Below are positions 5,252 through 20,811 of a DNA stretch of 23,646 nt, piece by piece (the first letter of the stretch is position 1; the number at the start of each line of letters is the position of its first letter). The stretch spans positions 1 through 23,646 of the IMG/VR virus record IMGVR_UViG_3300030688_000120. One strand, written 5' to 3'. The stretch is from a virus. The position numbers were made by a program, and so were the translations under genes. The notes under the pieces were generated by a model, which saw only the letters and a list, made by a program, of their open reading frames with translations, was not told the origin of the DNA and made no database searches.

Positions 5252-7864
5252 GTGAATAAACTATTTCTTTTGCTACTCATTTCGGGTATTGCTTTTGGCC
5301 AAGCCACCACGGGGTACCACCGGGTCAACCAACTATTGTCCCGGGGGACTTCTGGCGTTACGGCGCAAATTGTACCCAACGGTACGATTTTCGTAACCAA
5401 TACTACTACGGGGGCCGTTGCTACCATCTACTCTGATCCCGGCCTGTCTGTTCCGATTACTTCGGGGGTAGTAACATCTGATAAGAACGGGAACTACGAT
5501 TATTATATTCCCCTAAATTATTGTGTAGACGAACAGGTGTCTGCGGCGGGTCAAGGTAGCTATACTACCAAGAACATTTGCGTAAATAGCAGCGGAGGGT
5601 CCGCTCTTCCCGCCTCGGCTCCTTTGATAGGAACTACGAGTGGGGGGTCTGCTCAGAGCATCACTCTGGGAAGTAATCTTAGTTTGAGCGGAACTACTTT
5701 GAACGCGACAGGCGGAGGGTCTGCTCCAGCTCCTCCCGCTAACTGCATTCAACTGGCAAACACTGCGGCGACTGCGCTAGCGTGCGACCCCGAGTTTGCC
5801 GAAAACCCGATAACTCACACACTAACACTTGGCACAGGTGCAGATTCCTGCACCGGCGCGAACTGCATCACTCTGGCTAACGGCAATGGCACATTCGGAG
5901 GCACCGTCGAGGCTCCCATTGCGTTGCATGGACAGATCAACGCGACCTTTACGGCAAGCCAATACAGCGGTGGGTCTGTGGCTGCCCAGATAGCGGCTGC
6001 GCTCTCAGCGTGTGTCGCCAATGGCAGCGGTACGGTGATCGTTCCACCGACGATGGGGGTAGGTTATTGGACTCCGCCGTTACCGACCGGTTGCAACGTT
6101 ATAGATCAGCGTAATGGAATCTTTGATATTCATCGAACCAGCGGAACTAATCTAGCGGGGCAGTCAGGCGGTTTCGGCGTGTTTATCAACGAAGGAGCAC
6201 CTATCAGTACGAACCCCGCAGCTAATAACCCTGTGGGTTTCTACTCGGAAGTATGGTCACGGACCTTGTTCGGAGCAATCACCCCCGGCACTGGATATAC
6301 TACAGCAAGCGGACTTTCCACTACTGGAGGAACAGGGACGGGACTGACGGTCAATATCACGGCAACTAGCGGAGGTATTATCTCTGCAACCGTAGCAACC
6401 GATGGAACCGGATACACTCCAGGAGATGTTGTTACAGTTACGCAGTCTGGGGCATCGGGCGGAACGATAGCTCTCATAACCGTACCTATGACGGCATGGG
6501 GCGCAAATCCTCTTGTCGCGTGCAAGAGCACATCAGCAGTATTCCCTTGCTGGGCAGCGGAAAACGATGTAAGCAACCAAACATCCGGGATGAGTGGTTA
6601 TGGTTCTAATTCGGTCATTACTAGCTATTCGGGATTCAGCGCAGCCCAGCCGTCGCAACTAGGAGACTCGGCATTTTATGCCAATGGAGTTTACGCTCGA
6701 TGGTCTACAGGACTGAAGATCAAAGCAGCATCCTTTCAGTGGATTGGAAACCAAAGTTATGAGCCTGCTAGTGGAAGTGCCCAAACCACATACCCTCCTC
6801 CCGGATTTAACTTCACTGGCGCAATCACCGGATCGGCCTCTCCGCAGCAGTTGAGTGTTACTCAGACCGCAGGCAATTCCCTAAGCTATGCCGGAACTAA
6901 CTCTTACGTTACTTGTGATCCTTTAGGTAATCCTGAAACGGTTCTAATTACGGCGCTTAACTCAAGCAATGTAGTAGGAACTTTTTTGAATAACCATGCG
7001 AGTGGAACGAGTTGCTACTTCTTCGATGCACAGTTTGGATTCAATGCCTACAACGCGATTTTCCAATATTCCCCTATCGTGTTAGGAAGCATCAAGCAAA
7101 CTGCTCTTTATGGTGCGGCATCACCTAACATAGCCGTATATGACAACGCCGGAATCCTGCAAGAGCCAATCCGCGTAGACAACAGCAACACTTTCATTCT
7201 CACAACGATGGGTAACGGCCTGAGTGTCCGCAATCGGACAAACAATTCAGGCATAATTCAAACGACCAAAGAAGACGGGACAGTGGCCTGGAACACTTTC
7301 TCGACGGGGAATCCCCAGTGGACCACATACGGTCCAAGCGTTCCGACTGGAAATAATATCGGGGCATGTTACGGACTCGACACGAGCAACAAGGACGGCG
7401 CTTGCTTTGACTTTTCCAATGTCGCGGGAACGGGAAGTTCTTCTAATTTTGGCTATCTAGCCATTCAAGGTGCTTCTCCAGCAATATCTTGGTTTGCAGA
7501 TCAGCATGTGTCTATTGGAAATCGTCTGGTTATCAATGGCGACTTCTCGAATGCCAACGGCGTCACTATTCCCTCAACCGCAACGGCTTCTAAAGGAACA
7601 CTTTCTGGCGGTCCTGTCTTGGTCCTCACTTGTACTACGGGGAGCATCACCCCCGCTACTACAGCAGGTGGCACAGCAAGCGGGACGTGTACGGTATCCG
7701 CATCTGCCACAGGGCACGCGGGAGCCGCCACAGCTTCTGATGGAACCGTGCAGGGAATAGTCATTCCCCAAGTTTCCGTAATCGGTACGACGGCTACGGT
7801 TACGCTCACGACGGTCATCGCTGGATCACCCACGGCAAAGACTTACAACGTCACGGTATTTTAA
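5252..7864 (+). CDS. Large tail-spike or fibre-like surface protein with Sec signal peptide
   Basis: 870 residues. GTG 5252 is chosen because it opens a classic signal peptide (VNKLFLLLLISGIAFGQA, likely cut after AFG). The longer in-frame extension to 5129 runs through another gene and is charged. Residues about 20-110 hold a beta-sandwich-like head (GTIFVTNTTTGAVATIYSDP, then GNYDYYIP) common at the start of phage tail fibres. Residues about 130-165 carry fibre-like GTTSGGSAQSITLGSN. From about 230 there is a pectate-lyase-like pattern (GGSVAAQIAAALSACVANGS, then GTVIVPP). A GTGYT repeat occurs around 345-390. The C-terminal 90 residues are Thr/Ser/Gly-rich beta sequence. Probable adhesion or polysaccharide-binding protein. 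The signal peptide is odd for a virion protein. Confidence 0.75.
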   Translation: MNKLFLLLLISGIAFGQATTGYHRVNQLLSRGTSGVTAQIVPNGTIFVTNTTTGAVATIYSDPGLSVPITSGVVTSDKNGNYDYYIPLNYCVDEQVSAAGQGSYTTKNICVNSSGGSALPASAPLIGTTSGGSAQSITLGSNLSLSGTTLNATGGGSAPAPPANCIQLANTAATALACDPEFAENPITHTLTLGTGADSCTGANCITLANGNGTFGGTVEAPIALHGQINATFTASQYSGGSVAAQIAAALSACVANGSGTVIVPPTMGVGYWTPPLPTGCNVIDQRNGIFDIHRTSGTNLAGQSGGFGVFINEGAPISTNPAANNPVGFYSEVWSRTLFGAITPGTGYTTASGLSTTGGTGTGLTVNITATSGGIISATVATDGTGYTPGDVVTVTQSGASGGTIALITVPMTAWGANPLVACKSTSAVFPCWAAENDVSNQTSGMSGYGSNSVITSYSGFSAAQPSQLGDSAFYANGVYARWSTGLKIKAASFQWIGNQSYEPASGSAQTTYPPPGFNFTGAITGSASPQQLSVTQTAGNSLSYAGTNSYVTCDPLGNPETVLITALNSSNVVGTFLNNHASGTSCYFFDAQFGFNAYNAIFQYSPIVLGSIKQTALYGAASPNIAVYDNAGILQEPIRVDNSNTFILTTMGNGLSVRNRTNNSGIIQTTKEDGTVAWNTFSTGNPQWTTYGPSVPTGNNIGACYGLDTSNKDGACFDFSNVAGTGSSSNFGYLAIQGASPAISWFADQHVSIGNRLVINGDFSNANGVTIPSTATASKGTLSGGPVLVLTCTTGSITPATTAGGTASGTCTVSASATGHAGAATASDGTVQGIVIPQVSVIGTTATVTLTTVIAGSPTAKTYNVTVF

Positions 7865-10782: not shown

Positions 10783-12858
10783 ATGATTCTCCCAGAGCCC
10801 GTACGCGATCCTCACCAAGACATAACTCCAGACGAAGCGAAGGTGTTCCTCAGTTCAGGAACTTGGGGAGACCCAGCAGCTCTCGCGTTGACGGTGCAAG
10901 ACTCTGAGAGAGCAGAATCTGAAGAGCAACGTCGTCAGTGGATCATGGCTTGGGTTTCGTCGAGGGATCTTTATACCTCGGTTTATTCTCCAAACTTCTG
11001 GCCCGGAACGTCGATTGAAGCCTCGTCCGTAAACTTTTTCACGGTGGCCACGGCAGTTAATGGGATCAATCCTCAGCTTCTGGCTGGATTGTTCTACGAA
11101 AACCCTCCTTTCATGGTTCAAGAAAGACCCGGAACCACCTCCCAGTGCGCCCGAGCCGTCTCCGCTCTATTAGGATACCAACTAGAAGATATCAACTTCC
11201 GCGAAGAACTCCGCCTCGGATTGATGAACTGCCTGCTATTTGGTACGGCCATCTTCCAAGAGGGGTGGGAAAAATATACAAAGAAACGCAAGATCGTCAA
11301 ACGCAAGAATCCTGTCATCAAGATTCCGAGCTTAATCCCGGGAGCCAAAGAAACATCGATTAGTGATGACGAGCTAGAAGTTGAGGAAATCGAAGAGGTA
11401 ATCGACCGACCCACGTTTGAGCACATCGTCAACCTCAGAGAAGTCTTGGTTGACCCGGGCCTCGAAGTTCCGGATATTCGCAAAGCTAAATATGTTGTCC
11501 GTCGCCGATACATGACGTGGGAAGACATTGATAAGCTACGTGACCGGGAAGGATACGATATTCCTTCTCGACAGAAGATGTTAGAGCTGTTCTTTCCTCC
11601 GAGGGAGCTTCCCGAGTCAAACCCACAGCAAGAAGGTGGACGCAATCCTTTATGGGACGCGCGCGCCGAATCCCCTTGGGACGCAACTACGATCGATCCG
11701 TTCCAAAAACCTCTTGAAGTTCTAGAACGCTGGGACAACAATACCCTGATTGTAGTCATCCAGAAAAAGATGGTTATCTACAACGGTCAAAATGCCTATG
11801 GTAAGATTCCTTTTCTGAGTATTGGTTGGTGGGATCAGCCGGGAGCCTTCTGGTCTATAGGTCTTGGTCGTCTAGTCGGAACAGAACAGCGTGTCCAAGC
11901 AGGAATAACCAACCTGATGATGAATATCGCGAACCTGAAGCTGAACGCTCCGTTGGTCCGCGTAAAAGGCAAGTCGGTCCCAACACAAAGTATCCGCATC
12001 GGTCCTAATAAGATGATCGAGGTGGATGCTCAAGGCGATCTTCAACCCCTGAAATTTGGAGACCCTGTAGTAGAAGCCAACCAGCTCTTTGCCATGTCTC
12101 AGCAGAGGGTTGACTCGGTCTCGGGTAACAATCCGATCACATCCCAGGGTAACGCGGGATCAGCAGGACACTCGAATCTTGCCCGGTCGTCTGCTGGAGC
12201 TTCGCTCCTCGGGCAGGGTGCTTCGAATGTCATCTCGGATTGTATCGATAAACTGGCTAATCAGGTGCTGGTGCCTTATTTGTACGACATGCAAGAGATG
12301 AACGCAATGATGCTGCCATATTCTCAACTGGAATGGATTCTATCTGAAGAACTTCAGCACGAGTATATACAAGAGGGCGGCGATATCATAAATGTTCTCA
12401 ACGCCAAAGTCAAATTTGCCGTTCTTGCGGGAAGTAAAATGCAGACGCGGCGCGTTGCGCAGCAAGCTCTCCCCATGATAAGTCAACAGATTCTATCTCC
12501 TGAAGCAACCACCCATTTGCAGAATCAAGGAATGACGGTTGATTTCATCGAACTGGTGAGAACGTGGATGGAGATGGCGGAGCTGAAAAATATGCGAGAC
12601 TTGATCCGCCCAATGAATGAACAAGAAATGGCTAGGATGCAAGCCCAGACACAATCAGCCGCTCAGCAATCAAAAGCAGCAGTACAATCTCAGCTAGCAG
12701 ACCAAAAATTCCAACAAGCCCAAACATTGGCGGATCAAGAGAACACAGCCCGGGCTGCTCGTGACGTTTTGCGCGAATCATTCAAGGCTTCCGTAGCTCC
12801 TCAAGAACTCACGGGAGCACCCAACGCCTCATCTGGGTTTGGCTCGTTAAACATTTAA
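10783..12858 (+). CDS. Portal protein
   Basis: 691 residues, ATG 10783 with AAGGA 5 bases upstream. The portal is the ring at one vertex through which DNA enters and leaves. Family-like features are an N-terminal region with RDLYTSVYSPNFWPG and LLAGLFYENPPFMVQERPG, a central wing (FEHIVNLREVLVDPGLEVPD, VRRRYMTWEDIDKL), a stem and crown region (LGRLVGTEQRVQAGITNLMM), and a long Gln/Ala-rich C-terminal coiled coil (about 615-675), as in large podovirus portals. The length is normal for P22-like portals. It stands upstream of the scaffold and capsid, the usual order. Assigned by overall pattern, not a single motif. Confidence 0.85.
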   Translation: MILPEPVRDPHQDITPDEAKVFLSSGTWGDPAALALTVQDSERAESEEQRRQWIMAWVSSRDLYTSVYSPNFWPGTSIEASSVNFFTVATAVNGINPQLLAGLFYENPPFMVQERPGTTSQCARAVSALLGYQLEDINFREELRLGLMNCLLFGTAIFQEGWEKYTKKRKIVKRKNPVIKIPSLIPGAKETSISDDELEVEEIEEVIDRPTFEHIVNLREVLVDPGLEVPDIRKAKYVVRRRYMTWEDIDKLRDREGYDIPSRQKMLELFFPPRELPESNPQQEGGRNPLWDARAESPWDATTIDPFQKPLEVLERWDNNTLIVVIQKKMVIYNGQNAYGKIPFLSIGWWDQPGAFWSIGLGRLVGTEQRVQAGITNLMMNIANLKLNAPLVRVKGKSVPTQSIRIGPNKMIEVDAQGDLQPLKFGDPVVEANQLFAMSQQRVDSVSGNNPITSQGNAGSAGHSNLARSSAGASLLGQGASNVISDCIDKLANQVLVPYLYDMQEMNAMMLPYSQLEWILSEELQHEYIQEGGDIINVLNAKVKFAVLAGSKMQTRRVAQQALPMISQQILSPEATTHLQNQGMTVDFIELVRTWMEMAELKNMRDLIRPMNEQEMARMQAQTQSAAQQSKAAVQSQLADQKFQQAQTLADQENTARAARDVLRESFKASVAPQELTGAPNASSGFGSLNI

Positions 12859-15196: not shown

Positions 15197-15223
15197 AAAC
15201 TAACAACAAAGGAGTATCTCTAA

Positions 15224-17626
15224 ATGAGCTACTCACCTGCGAGTATCGTAACTTCCGGGGCGCTTCCTAACCTTGTAGCAATTCACTAAAATCTTGGTGA
15301 ATCAAAATTCGGCTATATCGGTGGAACTCTGTTGATACGCAGACAATACCGAGGAAAGACCGGGAAACCGGAATCCGTAGAGACTAATACGCCGAACAGT
15401 CCAGATAATGGACTGAAGATAGAGCCCGATCCTATTGGTGACAGTAGGCGCGACCCAACGGTGACGTTGGTGTCCTAAAACACAAATGATGAACGTGAAG
15501 CGATCCCTAACCTAAAAGCCCAGACGCCTTTCTTGAGCATGACAAAACAACGTCCGCTGCCCCTCCGTCAGGGAAACCAGATTCAGTATTGAATAGTGCT
15601 GAATTAAAATCTAGCTATATCGGTGGAACCCTATTGACAATAGAATGCTGGTGTGGTATTCTTATCTTGTCAACTAGACAATACCGAGCAAAGACCCTAT
15701 GAGAGAACGAACAAAAGCATACGTAGCCGGACTGATGGACGCCGAGGGCTGCTTTTCGATTTACAAACCAACAGTTAAACCGAACGGCCCCTGCACCAAC
15801 TACCAACCACGCATTGTTTTGAGTAATACTAATCTGTCGATAGTCAAATGGCTGGTTAGAACTTTCGGTGGCTTCTTTACCAAACATACCCCTAAGAAAG
15901 GGCAGGTTTGGTATCAGTGGAACCTCAACGGCAAAAAGTTTGCCCCCGAATTCCTCTCATACATTCTTCCGTATCTTCGCATCAAAAAAGCTGAGGCTCT
16001 CGTACTTCAGGAGTTCTATAGCTTGGGAGACGCACAGAATCCTTCCAGACGCCAAGAACTTATGGCAACGATTCGCGGAATGAAGAATAGGGAATGCCTA
16101 ACGACTGAGACGCTAGACGGAAAAGTTGAAGATAAACTAACACACGCGTATATAGCCGGAATTATGGACGGAGAAGGCTGCGTATCCGCCGCTTTCACCC
16201 CGGACAATAAACCGATGCTACGAATTCGGATGGGAAATAATTACCGCCCCCTTGTCCAAATGTTTCTCGATCTCTACGGAGGTTGGTTTCATACGACAGA
16301 GGCCCACGACAACACCGAGGAGTTTTATACTTGGGAGTTGACGGGAAAAGAAAGTCGGGAACAATTCCTCCTCCAAGTTCTTCCCTACCTAAGAATCAAG
16401 AGACCGCAAGCCAAGATCGCTTTGGAACTTGTTCGTCTTCCTAGTTCTCCGAATAGGGAACTCCGCAAGAAGTTGTGTGATGCAATTCGTTATCTCAACC
16501 TACCGAAGATACAGCCTGTTCTCATCGGCGACGATGAGAGTGCCCCAGTAGAGATACTGACGGCCTAAACACAAAAGTCTTCACCTACGCTCTGCTTGCC
16601 GCCAACCTTAATCAGGCAGCGGAAGGAACCGTCGGAAGTCCTATCAGTGAATCCAGCAATAAAATTGTCGCGACTATCGGGCAATATGCTGATTTCATTA
16701 ACAGTTCCGACCTTGCCCTGGACGTTGCAATTGACGACCCGGGTCTCCTTCAGAACTTGGCAAACGAACTGAACTACCGCTTGGCTCTCACCCTCAACTC
16801 CCTCGTCCAGCTTACCGCTGACTCGGCTGTTGCGGTCGATAGCTTGGTAAATATCCAGCTTGCAAACGGCTCGTATCTGACTGCGAATAACATCCGGTCT
16901 GCTGCTCAGTCGCTGGTAAGCGTCAACGCTCGTCCTCTCGTGGACAACAAATTTGGTGGAATCATCCACCCGAACGTGGTCCGCGATGTGCTGAACGACA
17001 CCTCCTTCAACGGATTGTCGGACATCATCAAGAGAAGCGACGAGATGCGCAACATGCTGTTTGAACTGCCTAAGAATGAGGATACCATCTCGTTCGCGGG
17101 TGTGACGTTCAAGCAGACTAGTACCGCGCCGACAGTAACTATTGGGGGTAATACCTATTACAATAGTTACATCTTCGGCGACGATGCTATCTTCTCTGTG
17201 TTCCTGGGGAAGAATCCAAACGATGGATCGAAGAACTATCAAATGGTAGCTTAGGGGAGTAATTCCCTTCGAACACACCGCTAATTCAGGGAACAACTCT
17301 TCGGAGTCAATCCTGAGCGAAGCCCGAAAGGGAACGTGCAGAGGCCATACACGGTGCCCCTCGAAAGAGGGTGATGAGATGGTCCGCTCTATACGGCGAC
17401 GTATAGAGGTGGGCGGAACAAGAAACGACCCACCCTTGTCCAGAGTAAGGGACATGTAACAAAGAGGAAATTGTTCATACAGTCTGCGCCAGAACAAGGC
17501 AGTGTGAGTGATCCAGCTCGCCAAATTGGGGGTTGGGTTTCTTATAACGTTAGGTATACCAATACTTTGCGTCCAGGCTCGACAATGACGCTTCGTCGTT
17601 TGCAGTCGGAAACATCATCCAGCTAA
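15224..17626 (+). CDS. Major capsid protein, four exons
   Basis: AAAGGAG precedes ATG 15224 by 9 bases. Proposed exons are 15224-15287, 15489-15587, 16578-17239 and 17468-17626, which join in frame to 984 bases (327 residues). Joins give IHYEREAIPNLKAQTPF, GNQIQFFTYALLAAN and SKNYKLFIQSAPEQGS. These look like a continuous HK97-fold coat protein of the P22/N4-gp56-like type, with a central EGTVGS and IGQYADFINSSDL and the C-terminal SDPARQIGGWVSYNV. Each exon boundary was chosen so that the exon ends in U, the intron ends in G and the frame continues. Without splicing the reading frame stops at 15288-15290. A stop-overlapping motif copy (17617) follows. Family assignment is by pattern only. 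Confidence 0.85.
15288..15488 (+). ncRNA. Group I intron 1 in the capsid gene
   Basis: 201 bases with no ORF. P1: exon ATTCACT (15281-15287) pairs with intron GGTGAAT (15296-15302), giving the required U-G at the splice site. P4 is TCGGT (15318-15322) with ACCGA (15348-15352), and P5 is TCTG with CAGA. The GGTGGAAC...AGACAATACCGAG signature resembles T4 td-type (IA) introns. P8 is the motif hairpin at 15397-15415. GAAGATAGAG is the usual J8/7. P9 is CCAACG-GTGA-CGTTGG. It ends CACAAATG. I could not find a convincing P7 partner strand, so the core may be degenerate or misread. It is related to intron 2 by sequence. Confidence 0.8.
15399..15413 (+). repeat. Dispersed 15-bp motif, copy 9, forming intron P8
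   Basis: GTCCAGATAATGGAC, exact consensus, extended to a 7-bp stem CAGTCCA/TGGACTG (15397-15415). It occupies the place of hairpin P8 in intron 1, between the conserved GACTA and GAAGATA segments. Confidence 0.85.
15588..16577 (+). ncRNA. Group I intron 2 in the capsid gene, carrying an endonuclease gene
   Basis: 990 bases. P1: exon ATTCAGT (15581-15587) pairs with GCTGAAT (15598-15604), with U-G at the splice site. It shares TATATCGGTGGAAC and GACAATACCGAGCAAAGACC with intron 1. P5 is longer here (TTGACA with TGTCAA). The conserved 3' core lies inside the endonuclease gene: GTTGT near 16473 can pair with ACAGC at 16511 as P7 after GAAGAT, and CTCATCG-GCGA-CGATGAG is a P9-like GNRA hairpin. 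It ends ACACAAAAG. The splice join at T15587/16578 restores the frame as QFFTY. A cut after the other U-G pair (T15589) would break the frame. Confidence 0.8.
15699..16568 (+). CDS. LAGLIDADG homing endonuclease (intron-encoded)
   Basis: 289 residues. It carries two LAGLIDADG motifs: AYVAGLMDAEGCFSI (residues 7-21) and AYIAGIMDGEGCVSA (150-164), with the acidic residues D14/E16 and D157/E159 placed for metal binding. Each half then repeats a GGxF...W.LxGK...FL..LPYLRIK pattern (FLSYILPYLRIKKAEA and FLLQVLPYLRIKRPQA), so this is an intact monomeric two-domain enzyme. It cuts the intronless capsid allele to spread intron 2, and some such proteins also help splicing. ATG 15699 starts in the P6-side loop with no strong ribosome binding site. 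The 3' end overlaps conserved intron structure. Confidence 0.93.
   Translation: MRERTKAYVAGLMDAEGCFSIYKPTVKPNGPCTNYQPRIVLSNTNLSIVKWLVRTFGGFFTKHTPKKGQVWYQWNLNGKKFAPEFLSYILPYLRIKKAEALVLQEFYSLGDAQNPSRRQELMATIRGMKNRECLTTETLDGKVEDKLTHAYIAGIMDGEGCVSAAFTPDNKPMLRIRMGNNYRPLVQMFLDLYGGWFHTTEAHDNTEEFYTWELTGKESREQFLLQVLPYLRIKRPQAKIALELVRLPSSPNRELRKKLCDAIRYLNLPKIQPVLIGDDESAPVEILTA
17240..17467 (+). ncRNA. Group I intron 3 in the capsid gene
   Basis: 228 bases with no ORF. P1 is weak: exon CTAT (17236-17239) with GTAG (17246-17249), U-G at the junction. P4 is TCAGG/CCTGA (17286-17290, 17312-17316). P5 is ACTC-TTCG-GAGT. GAACGTGCAGAGGCC is the usual R segment. P7 pairs GGCCA (17343-17347) with TGGTC (17380-17384). 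P8 is CCCTC-GAAA-GAGGG. P9 is CTCTATACG-GCGA-CGTATAGAG (17387-17408), 9 bp. It ends at G17467. It differs in sequence from introns 1 and 2, so it is an independent arrival. The 5' site is less sure than for the others; an unspliced read-through stops at TAG 17252. Confidence 0.8.
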
Positions 17627-19361: not shown

Positions 19362-19519
19362 AAGATCAATCAAGAACGGTCCCGGTTCCCTTCGAAAATA
19401 CAACTATAGTCGTAACTGCCCCGAAAGATTGGGTAGTATTCAGACGATATAGGGGTGCTGCTAGACTTCCGGAAGTCGTATCGAGAAAAGCAGAATTGCT
19501 TCTCAAGGAGTCCAGATAA
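19358..19519 (+). CDS. Small hypothetical protein ending in the motif
   Basis: 53 residues in an ATGA overlap with the previous stop. Short beta segments (TTIVVTAPKDWVVFRRYRGA). The last three codons, TCC AGA TAA, are part of motif copy 11, exactly as for the gene before terminase. Function unknown. Confidence 0.6.
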   Translation: MKDQSRTVPVPFENTTIVVTAPKDWVVFRRYRGAARLPEVVSRKAELLLKESR

Positions 19520-19524: not shown

Positions 19525-19620
19525 AACGCTATCGGAGTTGCTTTTGTAGTCACGTTTACTGTTTGTTTTATTTGGATGATCGTTTACGAGAAAAGTGTTG
19601 ACAAACCCCACAATCCGTAG
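19519..19620 (+). CDS. Tiny single-pass membrane protein
   Basis: 33 residues starting at the motif ATG. Residues 5-22 are a strong membrane segment (IGVAFVVTFTVCFIWMIV), then YEKSVDKPHNP. There is no ribosome binding site apart from coupling to the previous stop (AAGGAG is 8-13 bases upstream). The 3' end contains the -35 box of promoter C. Possibly a small lysis or membrane regulator; the function is not visible. Confidence 0.55.
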   Translation: MENAIGVAFVVTFTVCFIWMIVYEKSVDKPHNP

Positions 19621-19626
19621 TACAAT
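19598..19626 (+). promoter_or_regulatory. Sigma-70-type promoter C
   Basis: TTGACA (19598-19603), a 17-base spacer and TACAAT (19621-19626). The start point should fall near 19633, 17 bases before ATG 19650. The -35 box lies inside the tiny membrane protein gene. Confidence 0.8.
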
Positions 19627-19649: not shown

Positions 19650-19811
19650 ATGGCATCTAAACACCCAGGTTTTAAAGCCGTTCAAAGTAAAATCGAGAAA
19701 TCTGGCTACAGCAAGGAGTCTGCCGGAGCTATTTTGGCTTCCGCTTCGCGGGGGGCCAGCAAGAAGGCGAAGGCTAAGAACCCCCAGCTGGCCAAGGTTA
19801 AAGGCAAGTAA
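19650..19811 (+). CDS. Small basic conserved phage protein
   Basis: 53 residues, with AAAGGAG 6 bases before ATG. The sequence KHPGFKAVQSKIEKSGYSKE then AGAILASASRGASKKAKAKN and PQLAKVK follows a pattern I recall from many short phage proteins (HPGFKxVxxxI.KK.GxSxxxAxAILAxxxRxAS..AKxxNPxLxxVK). The role is unknown; it is very basic. It is first in the transcript from promoter C, and its stop overlaps the next ATG. Confidence 0.8.
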   Translation: MASKHPGFKAVQSKIEKSGYSKESAGAILASASRGASKKAKAKNPQLAKVKGK

Positions 19812-20032
19812 TGGACCGCCCTCTCAAACTCAAGAAGGAGAGTAGTCAGATTCACGAAGGATCGACCTACGACCCGAGTACAGAACGACTGACTACCGTT
19901 CTGAATGGCGCGACGGTGGCTTACCACCAAGTTTCTCCCGAAATTATCGCCGGGTTAGAACAAGCCGATAGTCCCGGGACGTATTTCCACCAGTACATTC
20001 GTAACGCACATAAGAACACCAGAGTTCGTTAG
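19811..20032 (+). CDS. KTSC-domain protein
   Basis: 73 residues starting at a TAATG junction. The segment from SSQIHEGSTYDPSTERLTTV through VSPEIIAGLEQADSPGTYFH fits the KTSC domain, a short beta-sheet domain with V...L..A.S.G.YF..I seen in phages and bacteria, sometimes fused to lysyl-tRNA-synthetase-like proteins. Its function is not known. It is the last gene before the structured RNA region. Confidence 0.75.
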   Translation: MDRPLKLKKESSQIHEGSTYDPSTERLTTVLNGATVAYHQVSPEIIAGLEQADSPGTYFHQYIRNAHKNTRVR

Positions 20033-20035
20033 ATC

Positions 20036-20225
20036 GGCTGTCCATATCCTTCCTCCTTTATACGGATAGCCAGCCGGGGCTTGAACTTTCTCCTCCTTTC
20101 TTTCAGGCCCCGGTCACCCTATGAATAGAATAACCGCGAAGTGGGGCGGTTTCCGTAATGCGAAAAGCCTCTCAATGATGCTCAAATCGTCGCAGCGTTT
20201 TCCTTCCGGAAGGACCCCAACTTTT
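20036..20225 (+). ncRNA. Structured RNA region with two anti-Shine-Dalgarno loops
   Basis: Hairpin 1: GGCTGTCC (20036-20043) with GGATAGCC (20064-20071), extended by TAT/ATA, showing loop CCTTCCTCCTTT. Hairpin 2: CCGGGGCTTGAA (20074-20085) with TTCAGGCCCCGG (20102-20113), 12 bp with one wobble, loop CTTTCTCCTCCTTTCT. Both loops hold TCCTCCTTT (20051-20059 and 20091-20099). Hairpin 3: AACCGC with GCGGTT (20132-20151). A palindrome and a short T-run close the region. No convincing gene is present. It could be the 3' part of the promoter C transcript or a released small RNA. Confidence 0.65.
20201..20225 (+). terminator. Possible terminator or palindromic site
   Basis: TCCTTCCGGAAGGA (20201-20214) is a perfect 14-bp palindrome; as RNA it makes a 5-bp stem with a CCGG loop. 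TTTT comes 8 bases later, which is farther than ideal, so it may equally be a DNA site. Confidence 0.45.
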
Positions 20226-20240
20226 GTCCGAATAATGGAC
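20226..20240 (+). repeat. Dispersed 15-bp motif, copy 12
   Basis: GTCCGAATAATGGAC. With flanking bases, TTTGTCCGAATAATGGAC is identical to copy 13. It lies after a structured RNA and about 85 bases before promoter D. Confidence 0.82.
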
Positions 20241-20323
20241 GCGCAGGTCGCCGTAGACTAGCCAATCCGATAGTTCACTAGCCCTGAATGAGCGGGGAGG
20301 CGGATTGAGCAGGTTGGATAGTA

Positions 20324-20369
20324 CTGACAAGATTTTAGATGACCTCTACTATCGTAGTCAGACTACGAT
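20324..20369 (+). promoter_or_regulatory. Promoter D with a 19-bp palindrome at the start point
   Basis: CTGACA (20324-20329), a 17-base spacer and TACTAT (20347-20352). ATCGTAGTCAGACTACGAT (20351-20369) is a perfect dyad with nine-base arms about a single A, covering the expected start near 20359. This is the usual place of a repressor operator. The remaining 20241-20323 shows no gene; an in-frame TTG at 20305 is not favoured as a start. Confidence 0.6.
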
Positions 20370-20433
20370 TCCAACCGGGCAACGCTTGATCTTAAATCTA
20401 ACCTGCGGCCTGCGATTTTTACCCAGAGGAACA

Positions 20434-20811
20434 ATGCCAAAAATAGCCGATCCTTTCGACGACCACTATCAGCATTTAAATCACCTACCCGACTCCACCC
20501 TCCGCGACTTAGCTCGCAATGACGCAGCCCCCAGAGACTACCGGAAATTTGCTGTGGAGCTTCTGTGGGTCCGCAAATCTCCCTACGTCAAGCACACCGA
20601 CCTACGCGAATTTGTCCAAGAACTGGAAGCCGAGTACGACGGAATCTCGTTCGAATTCCCGGCACCGGTTGTAGAAGACGGTCCAGGTCCGTTGACGGCT
20701 GGCGTGACTACGAAGACCATGTTCGGCTCCGACGAAGTTCCTACTCCTACAGAAGCTCCCGAGGATAACCCTCCTCCGAAGCCTCGAAAGAAGAAACCGG
20801 ATGATGCCTAA
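20434..20811 (+). CDS. Hypothetical protein upstream of the phosphatase
   Basis: 125 residues from ATG 20434, with AGAGGAA 4 bases upstream. An in-frame TTG at 20305 would add 43 residues encoded by the promoter and palindrome, so it is rejected. The N-terminal 70 residues are compact and His/Asp/Arg-rich (FDDHYQHLNHLPDSTLRDLA, then FAVELLWVRKSPYV). The C-terminus is Pro/Lys-rich and disordered (PTPTEAPEDNPPPKPRKKKP). It overlaps the next gene by 11 bases. Function unknown. Confidence 0.7.
   Translation: MPKIADPFDDHYQHLNHLPDSTLRDLARNDAAPRDYRKFAVELLWVRKSPYVKHTDLREFVQELEAEYDGISFEFPAPVVEDGPGPLTAGVTTKTMFGSDEVPTPTEAPEDNPPPKPRKKKPDDA

Follow-up and report, generated by a model that had tools for sequence, protein, structure and literature searches.

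Tandem hairpins with anti-Shine-Dalgarno loops in a clade of soil phages that probably infect Acidobacteriota

The non-coding gap and its two hairpins

The window analysed here is a 23,646-base IMG/VR phage contig. Its plus strand carries a 73-aa KTSC-domain gene (19811–20032; PF13619, E 7.8e-12) and, further on, the gene dn (20434–20811), which is syntenic in related phages and gave no match in Pfam, PHROGs, NCBIfam or PADLOC. The gap between the KTSC stop codon at 20032 and the dn start at 20434 is non-coding (20033–20433). It holds, all on the plus strand, two adjacent hairpins (H1, 20036–20071; H2, 20073–20114), a separate neighbouring abiF-type RNA hairpin (20159–20195) and a large pseudoknotted RNA of ∼ 190 nt (20226–20413) that accompanies the pair in relatives. 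The KTSC gene stops 3 nt before H1. A sigma70-type promoter-like site on the same strand (TTGACA-17-TACAAT, 19598–19626; a consensus match only) precedes H1 by 438 nt and is also present upstream in L007, L004 and L419. We regard it as the candidate start of the transcript carrying the pair; no separate sRNA promoter for the pair was found in most members.

H1 pairs arms 20036–20047 and 20060–20071 around the loop CCTTCCTCCTTT (20048–20059). Written as GGCTGTCCATAT-ccttcctccttt-ATACGGATAGCC, it has 8 bp (one G-U), an A.C mismatch and then 3 bp, and its assignment rests on the fold, on counterparts in 14 other phage types and on the pairing of its own arms. One base further on, H2 (GCCGGGGCTTGAA-ctttctcctcctttct-TTCAGGCCCCGGT) pairs arms 20073–20085 and 20102–20114 through 12 bp with one U-G, plus a terminal G-U, and encloses the loop CTTTCTCCTCCTTTCT (20086–20101). 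H2 was assigned from its fold, from compensatory changes and from a match to the hairpin covariance model (28.5 bits). Together the hairpins fold at −35.9 kcal/mol (z = −6.2), with single-hairpin z-scores of −4.0 for H1 and −4.9 for H2. The two side-by-side stems described in an earlier note on this DNA were thus reproduced as drawn, and the loop sequence that it had seen in both was found to be specific to them: TCCTCCTTT occurs only twice in the window, once in each loop, with 0.27 copies expected. The pair exceeds chance.

Distribution and conservation in related phages

Relatives were gathered with the portal protein (10783–12855), which gave 39 related loci, with a profile search, which gave more, and with a 236-aa downstream protein, which gave 38. 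Sixteen related contigs were retrieved, and the relatives were searched for hairpins with anti-SD loops. The element recurs across these phages at one site per genome, after a KTSC-domain gene (most relatives have a homologue of it 5′ of the hairpins) and before the second structured RNA; in many members the pair begins 3–14 nt past a stop codon. Examples are the hairpin GCCGGGACAGTT-ctttcttcctcctttc-AACTGTCCCGGC of L004, ACCGGGGGTGGG-ctttattcctcctttct-CCCACCCCCGTT of L008, and GGCTCGGCG-ctttatcctcctttct-CGCCGAGTC of L064, which is followed directly by CCGGGGACGGA-ataattcctccttcc-TCCGTCCCCGG. For the earlier note, flanking genes kept in homologous phages whose stems and loops are lost would have spoken against the element. 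Among the 21 phage types in which the gap was read and the KTSC/large-RNA neighbourhood is present, 20 keep at least one anti-SD-loop hairpin (both loops in 13, one in seven), the exception being L415. Since only one loop keeps the anti-SD core in seven types and neither does in L415, two loops are not required.

More distant relatives (portal identity 45–53%) have no syntenic hairpins, KTSC gene or large RNA, apart from an isolated large-RNA motif match in L446. One of them, L400 (portal 47%), has instead a single anti-SD-loop hairpin directly 3′ of the capsid gene, and in two others (G017 and G020) the position immediately 3′ of that gene is taken by a plain GC-rich hairpin. Viral contigs were also scanned for tandem loop patterns, and the matches listed were mostly coding or of low complexity. 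Among them, L007 was the one phage in which the strict two-loop pattern marked a true pair, which means that the exact form has no wide distribution; outside the clade, only L135 (model score 26.2 bits) and L155 look similar. Both contigs are unrelated: L135 has tandem CCTCCTT-loop hairpins (797–861) upstream of a terminase small subunit gene, and L155 has them (6446–6515) directly after a capsid gene, in a Firmicutes-like element. The L155 hairpins are not common to its capsid relatives.

The stem sequences are almost wholly different between phages, and their pairing is retained. Stem arms are 98–100% paired with their own partner vs 44–60% with the arms of other phages (0 of 2000 permutations). 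RNAalifold returned no structure from a MAFFT alignment of the mixed hairpins, because unrelated stems misalign; the test for compensatory change used a gap-free subset of seven hairpins. In this set nine of ten pairs show compensatory change, the covariation score is 1.10 vs 0.27 after shuffling (reached in 0 of 500), and when the partner is shifted by a single column, the share of paired cells falls from 98.6% to roughly 50%.

The loops behave in the opposite manner. They vary in length (11–21 nt) around a core, CCUCCUU(UCU), that is kept across phages. The columns CTCCTT are invariant across 21 aligned hairpins, which were themselves selected by the motif. A permuted 7-mer control, independent of this choice, was run on 13 related contigs: CCTCCTT ranks first among 35 7-mers of the same base composition by its occurrence in hairpin loops, with 16 hairpins in nine contigs compared with at most seven hairpins in four contigs for 7-mers that do not share its sites. 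Free stems with a fixed loop imply that something reads the loop, and loop conservation through full stem turnover agrees with recognition of the loop sequence.

The stems contain far more G-U pairs than A-C mismatches, 24:2 (22:2 for internal pairs), a ratio somewhat inflated by the stems having been drawn with G-U allowed. It indicates that the plus-strand RNA is selected. A search of 1.12 Mb of related sequence with a covariance model derived from seven relatives listed 34 matches, all of them on the gene strand. Both observations argue for an RNA rather than a DNA element, and by these comparisons the hairpins are a real, conserved element at the RNA level. They also bear on the idea that the minus strand is active, its loops reading AAAGGAGGA (SD, or CsrA-binding GGA), or that the locus forms a DNA cruciform or is just an ordinary terminator. 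Although the minus strand also folds (z = −3.0), the strand bias of the stems and the orientation of the model matches make this group of explanations hardly credible. A CsrA sponge of the CsrB/RsmZ type, with GGA loops on the minus strand, was rejected on the G-U:A-C ratio, and a DNA element on that ratio together with the model matches. Like terminators and intercistronic stability hairpins, the pair has GC-rich stems and lies in a gap that follows genes, but it differs from them in its tandem arrangement and its long loops of conserved sequence. With such loops, and with no U-run after H2, the pair is not an intrinsic terminator; nor was a terminator listed there on the plus strand.

Loop identity and possible action on ribosome-binding sites

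The sole relative among 50,697 phage records was Tunturiibacter phage Tunturi_3 (31.5% portal identity), and another was located in a Candidatus Sulfotelmatobacter MAG. Both bacteria are Acidobacteriota, and this clade of tailed soil phages probably infects that phylum. Of eight Acidobacteriota 16S 3′ ends, all contain CACCTCCTTT and six contain CACCTCCTTTCTA. Most H2 loops read CCTCCTTTC or CCTCCTTTCT, and CCTCCTTTCT is identical to the CACCTCCTTTCTA tail of those six ends. The 16S pattern GGTTGGATCACCTCCTT had no match in Acidobacteriota, which read GGCTGGATCACC. By this identity, the loop is an anti-SD tail of the presumed host's type. The claim that the loops copy the 16S tail thus holds from CCUCC onwards but fails upstream, where the loops are pyrimidine-rich and not 16S-like: the rRNA bases 5′ of CCUCC (GGAUCA) are absent and helix 45 is not mimicked.

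The nearest known architecture is that of the α-r14 or ‘cuckoo’ RNAs, in which consecutive hairpins each carry an anti-SD motif in the loop and the stems are highly diverged (PMC3927594, PMC10746234). NfeR1 of Sinorhizobium has three CCUCCUCCC-loop hairpins with diverged stems and has been demonstrated experimentally to silence ntrB by pairing at the translation initiation region (PMC10746234), while the CcsR RNAs of Rhodobacter are co-transcribed with a gene for a small RNA-binding protein (PMC10253847). Like α-r14 (NfeR1, SmelA075 and the related CcsR; RF02344), the phage pair consists of at least two consecutive anti-SD-loop hairpins with diverged stems, and, as with CcsR, small-protein genes precede it. 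However, the phage loop is CCUCCUU(UCU) and not CCUCCUCCC, there are two hairpins and not three or four, and the carriers are phages, probably of Acidobacteriota, and not Alphaproteobacteria. The Rfam ar14 model gave no match in the window, and its best score, in L007, was 22.1 bits against a gathering threshold of 58.8. The pair may work like an α-r14 RNA, and we do not file it as a member. The analogy drawn in the earlier note is therefore apt for the architecture, whereas the novelty that it saw in the tandem arrangement applies to phages only, since α-r14 RNAs already carry several anti-SD loops each.

In the staphylococcal sRNAs with C-rich (UCCC-type) loops, hairpin loops pair with Shine-Dalgarno regions. 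The phage element resembles them in its C-rich hairpin loops and differs in having the full anti-SD CCUCCUU, in tandem, in a phage whose phylum is a different one; these families gave no Rfam match in the window. RNAIII, one of these sRNAs, is reported to pair in this way with coa mRNA (PMC2837412).

These comparisons lead us to prefer, tentatively and with a confidence that falls somewhat short of probable, a model in which the tandem anti-SD-loop RNA silences strong-SD messages in trans. Each hairpin would present a single-stranded CCUCCUU(UCU) loop to messenger RNAs, and the transcript bearing the pair would bind AGAAAGGAGG-type ribosome-binding sites through these loops. Bound sites would be hidden from the ribosome, lowering translation of strong-SD messages; the targets could be host messages or phage messages of the other genome arm, and a preference for host ones, which the earlier note considered, finds no support in these results. 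Two loops may offer two binding chances, or two targets per RNA. We infer this action because a fixed loop needs a reader, the SD sequence is the simplest partner and NfeR1 provides a precedent. It is weakened by the location of the pair inside a gene cluster and by the prospect that an unselective anti-SD RNA would strike the phage's own simultaneous messages as well.

Phage genes whose SD matches the 16S tail over at least 7 nt lie mostly on the strand opposite to the hairpins and the structural module, with counts of 45/408 vs 7/363 (p = 2e-7; noted in G003, G005, G011, G016 and G022). Such genes are compatible with a role as candidates for shut-off by the structural-module transcript. The bias is real, yet it is also seen in G017 and G019, which have no syntenic hairpins, and is thus not evidence of targeting.

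The position of the pair would also suit a role in cis within a polycistronic phage mRNA, either as an intercistronic, 3′ processing or stability signal, or as a device controlling the ribosome-binding sites of neighbours on the same transcript. The short distance from the preceding stop codon in many members agrees with this, as does a strong promoter that in most precedes coding genes and not the pair directly. The pair lies directly 5′ of a gene in G011 and G012, and GAGGA-type sites precede the dn start in several relatives. A plain stability hairpin, however, has no need of a conserved 7-nt loop, there is no constant neighbouring gene (the downstream one in G011 and G012 differs from that of other phages), and no conserved complementary site was found within the gap. 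We consider such a cis role somewhat unlikely.

Should the loops act in trans, the ribosome-tail-mimic design of the rhizobial cuckoo RNAs would have been reached independently by a virus, which could exert broad control of translation by RNA alone, a takeover that could be tested with a two-base loop swap. Anti-SD loops in diverged stems are known in bacteria, and we know of no phage case. A literature search, with subscription papers mostly outside its reach, found no phage anti-SD hairpin RNAs.

Neighbouring structured RNAs

The abiF-type hairpin downstream of H2 matches RF03085 (E 5e-4) at 32.6 bits, where the gathering threshold is 37; L007 scores 32.9 and L417 37.8 bits. It is found in four phage types, in a slot that varies between phages (20145–20181 in L007, about 19467–19490 in L008, 4014–4050 in L417), with a conserved 19-base core. 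The abiF motif serves as an antitoxin of AbiF in C. difficile (PMC12373285), and in the Acidobacteriota genome L482 it adjoins an AbiD gene. No Abi_2 domain (PF07751) was found in 16 related phage contigs, or among ten window proteins that included the neighbours of the hairpin. The orphan phage RNA is possibly an antitoxin decoy.

Such a neighbour suggests that the locus may collect decoys, and the anti-SD loops themselves might be one, baiting a protein of the host that targets the anti-SD region by binding or cutting it (a toxin nuclease, for example) and so protecting phage translation. The loop does copy the host-type tail CCUCCUUUCU. On the other hand, the failure to copy GGAUCA or to mimic helix 45 is unfavourable, and we know of no toxin that attacks the rRNA tail in the phage's host. 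Nuclease toxins cutting the anti-SD region do exist, RelE1 of M. tuberculosis being reported as one (PMC12620021). On balance this use of the loops appears quite improbable.

The large RNA (20226–20413; 34 pairs) is built from five to six helices together with a pseudoknot that covaries: TAGCCC pairs with CCGGGCAA, and in L416 and L417 GACC pairs with GGTC. Paired cells amount to 92.8%, and 0 of 500 shuffles reached its covariation score. Its invariant stretches are GACGATCTC-like and CCGGGCAA. It was also found in L007, L409, L008, L064, L422, L425, L414, L364, L374, L375, L376, L416 and L417, and a T-run follows it in the window (20416–20420) and in many members. It matched no Rfam family and is possibly a new RNA class.

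The pair could be the 5′ domain of a larger ncRNA with this pseudoknotted core, its loops serving in docking, dimerization or assembly (e.g. packaging). Within the clade the pair, the KTSC gene and the large RNA do co-occur, and more distant relatives lack all three; only 9–54 nt separate H2 from the large RNA in several phages, and the T-run comes after the large RNA in many members. Against this, a gene of about 150 codons intervenes in G011 and G012, which indicates that the two can be separated, L415 carries the large RNA but lacks the pair, and the large RNA contains no conserved GGAGG partner. A composite RNA of this kind is accordingly unlikely.

Extending the trans-silencing model to the whole gap, one transcript might supply an anti-host RNA toolkit: a late-infection anti-SD switch-off of strong-SD messages (of the host or the other phage arm), an abiF-type RNA neutralizing host AbiF/AbiD and a new class of pseudoknotted RNA. 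We offer this as speculation that is decidedly unlikely in its entirety. The conserved neighbourhood suggests that the little-studied phages of Acidobacteriota possess decoy RNAs for toxin-antitoxin defences as well as a pseudoknotted RNA class not previously described.

An Rfam scan of the window at gathering thresholds gave only two group I introns (15208–15448 and 17230–17406), which lie around the major capsid gene region near a LAGLIDADG-like ORF (15699–16568); relatives carry introns at other places in the major capsid gene. A short palindrome, TCCRRATAATGGA, often overlaps a stop/start junction (TAATGG), with sites near 19514 and at 20226–20240 of the window. It recurs at many sites in G016, G021, G011 and G022, and the G016 and G021 genomes each contain numerous copies.
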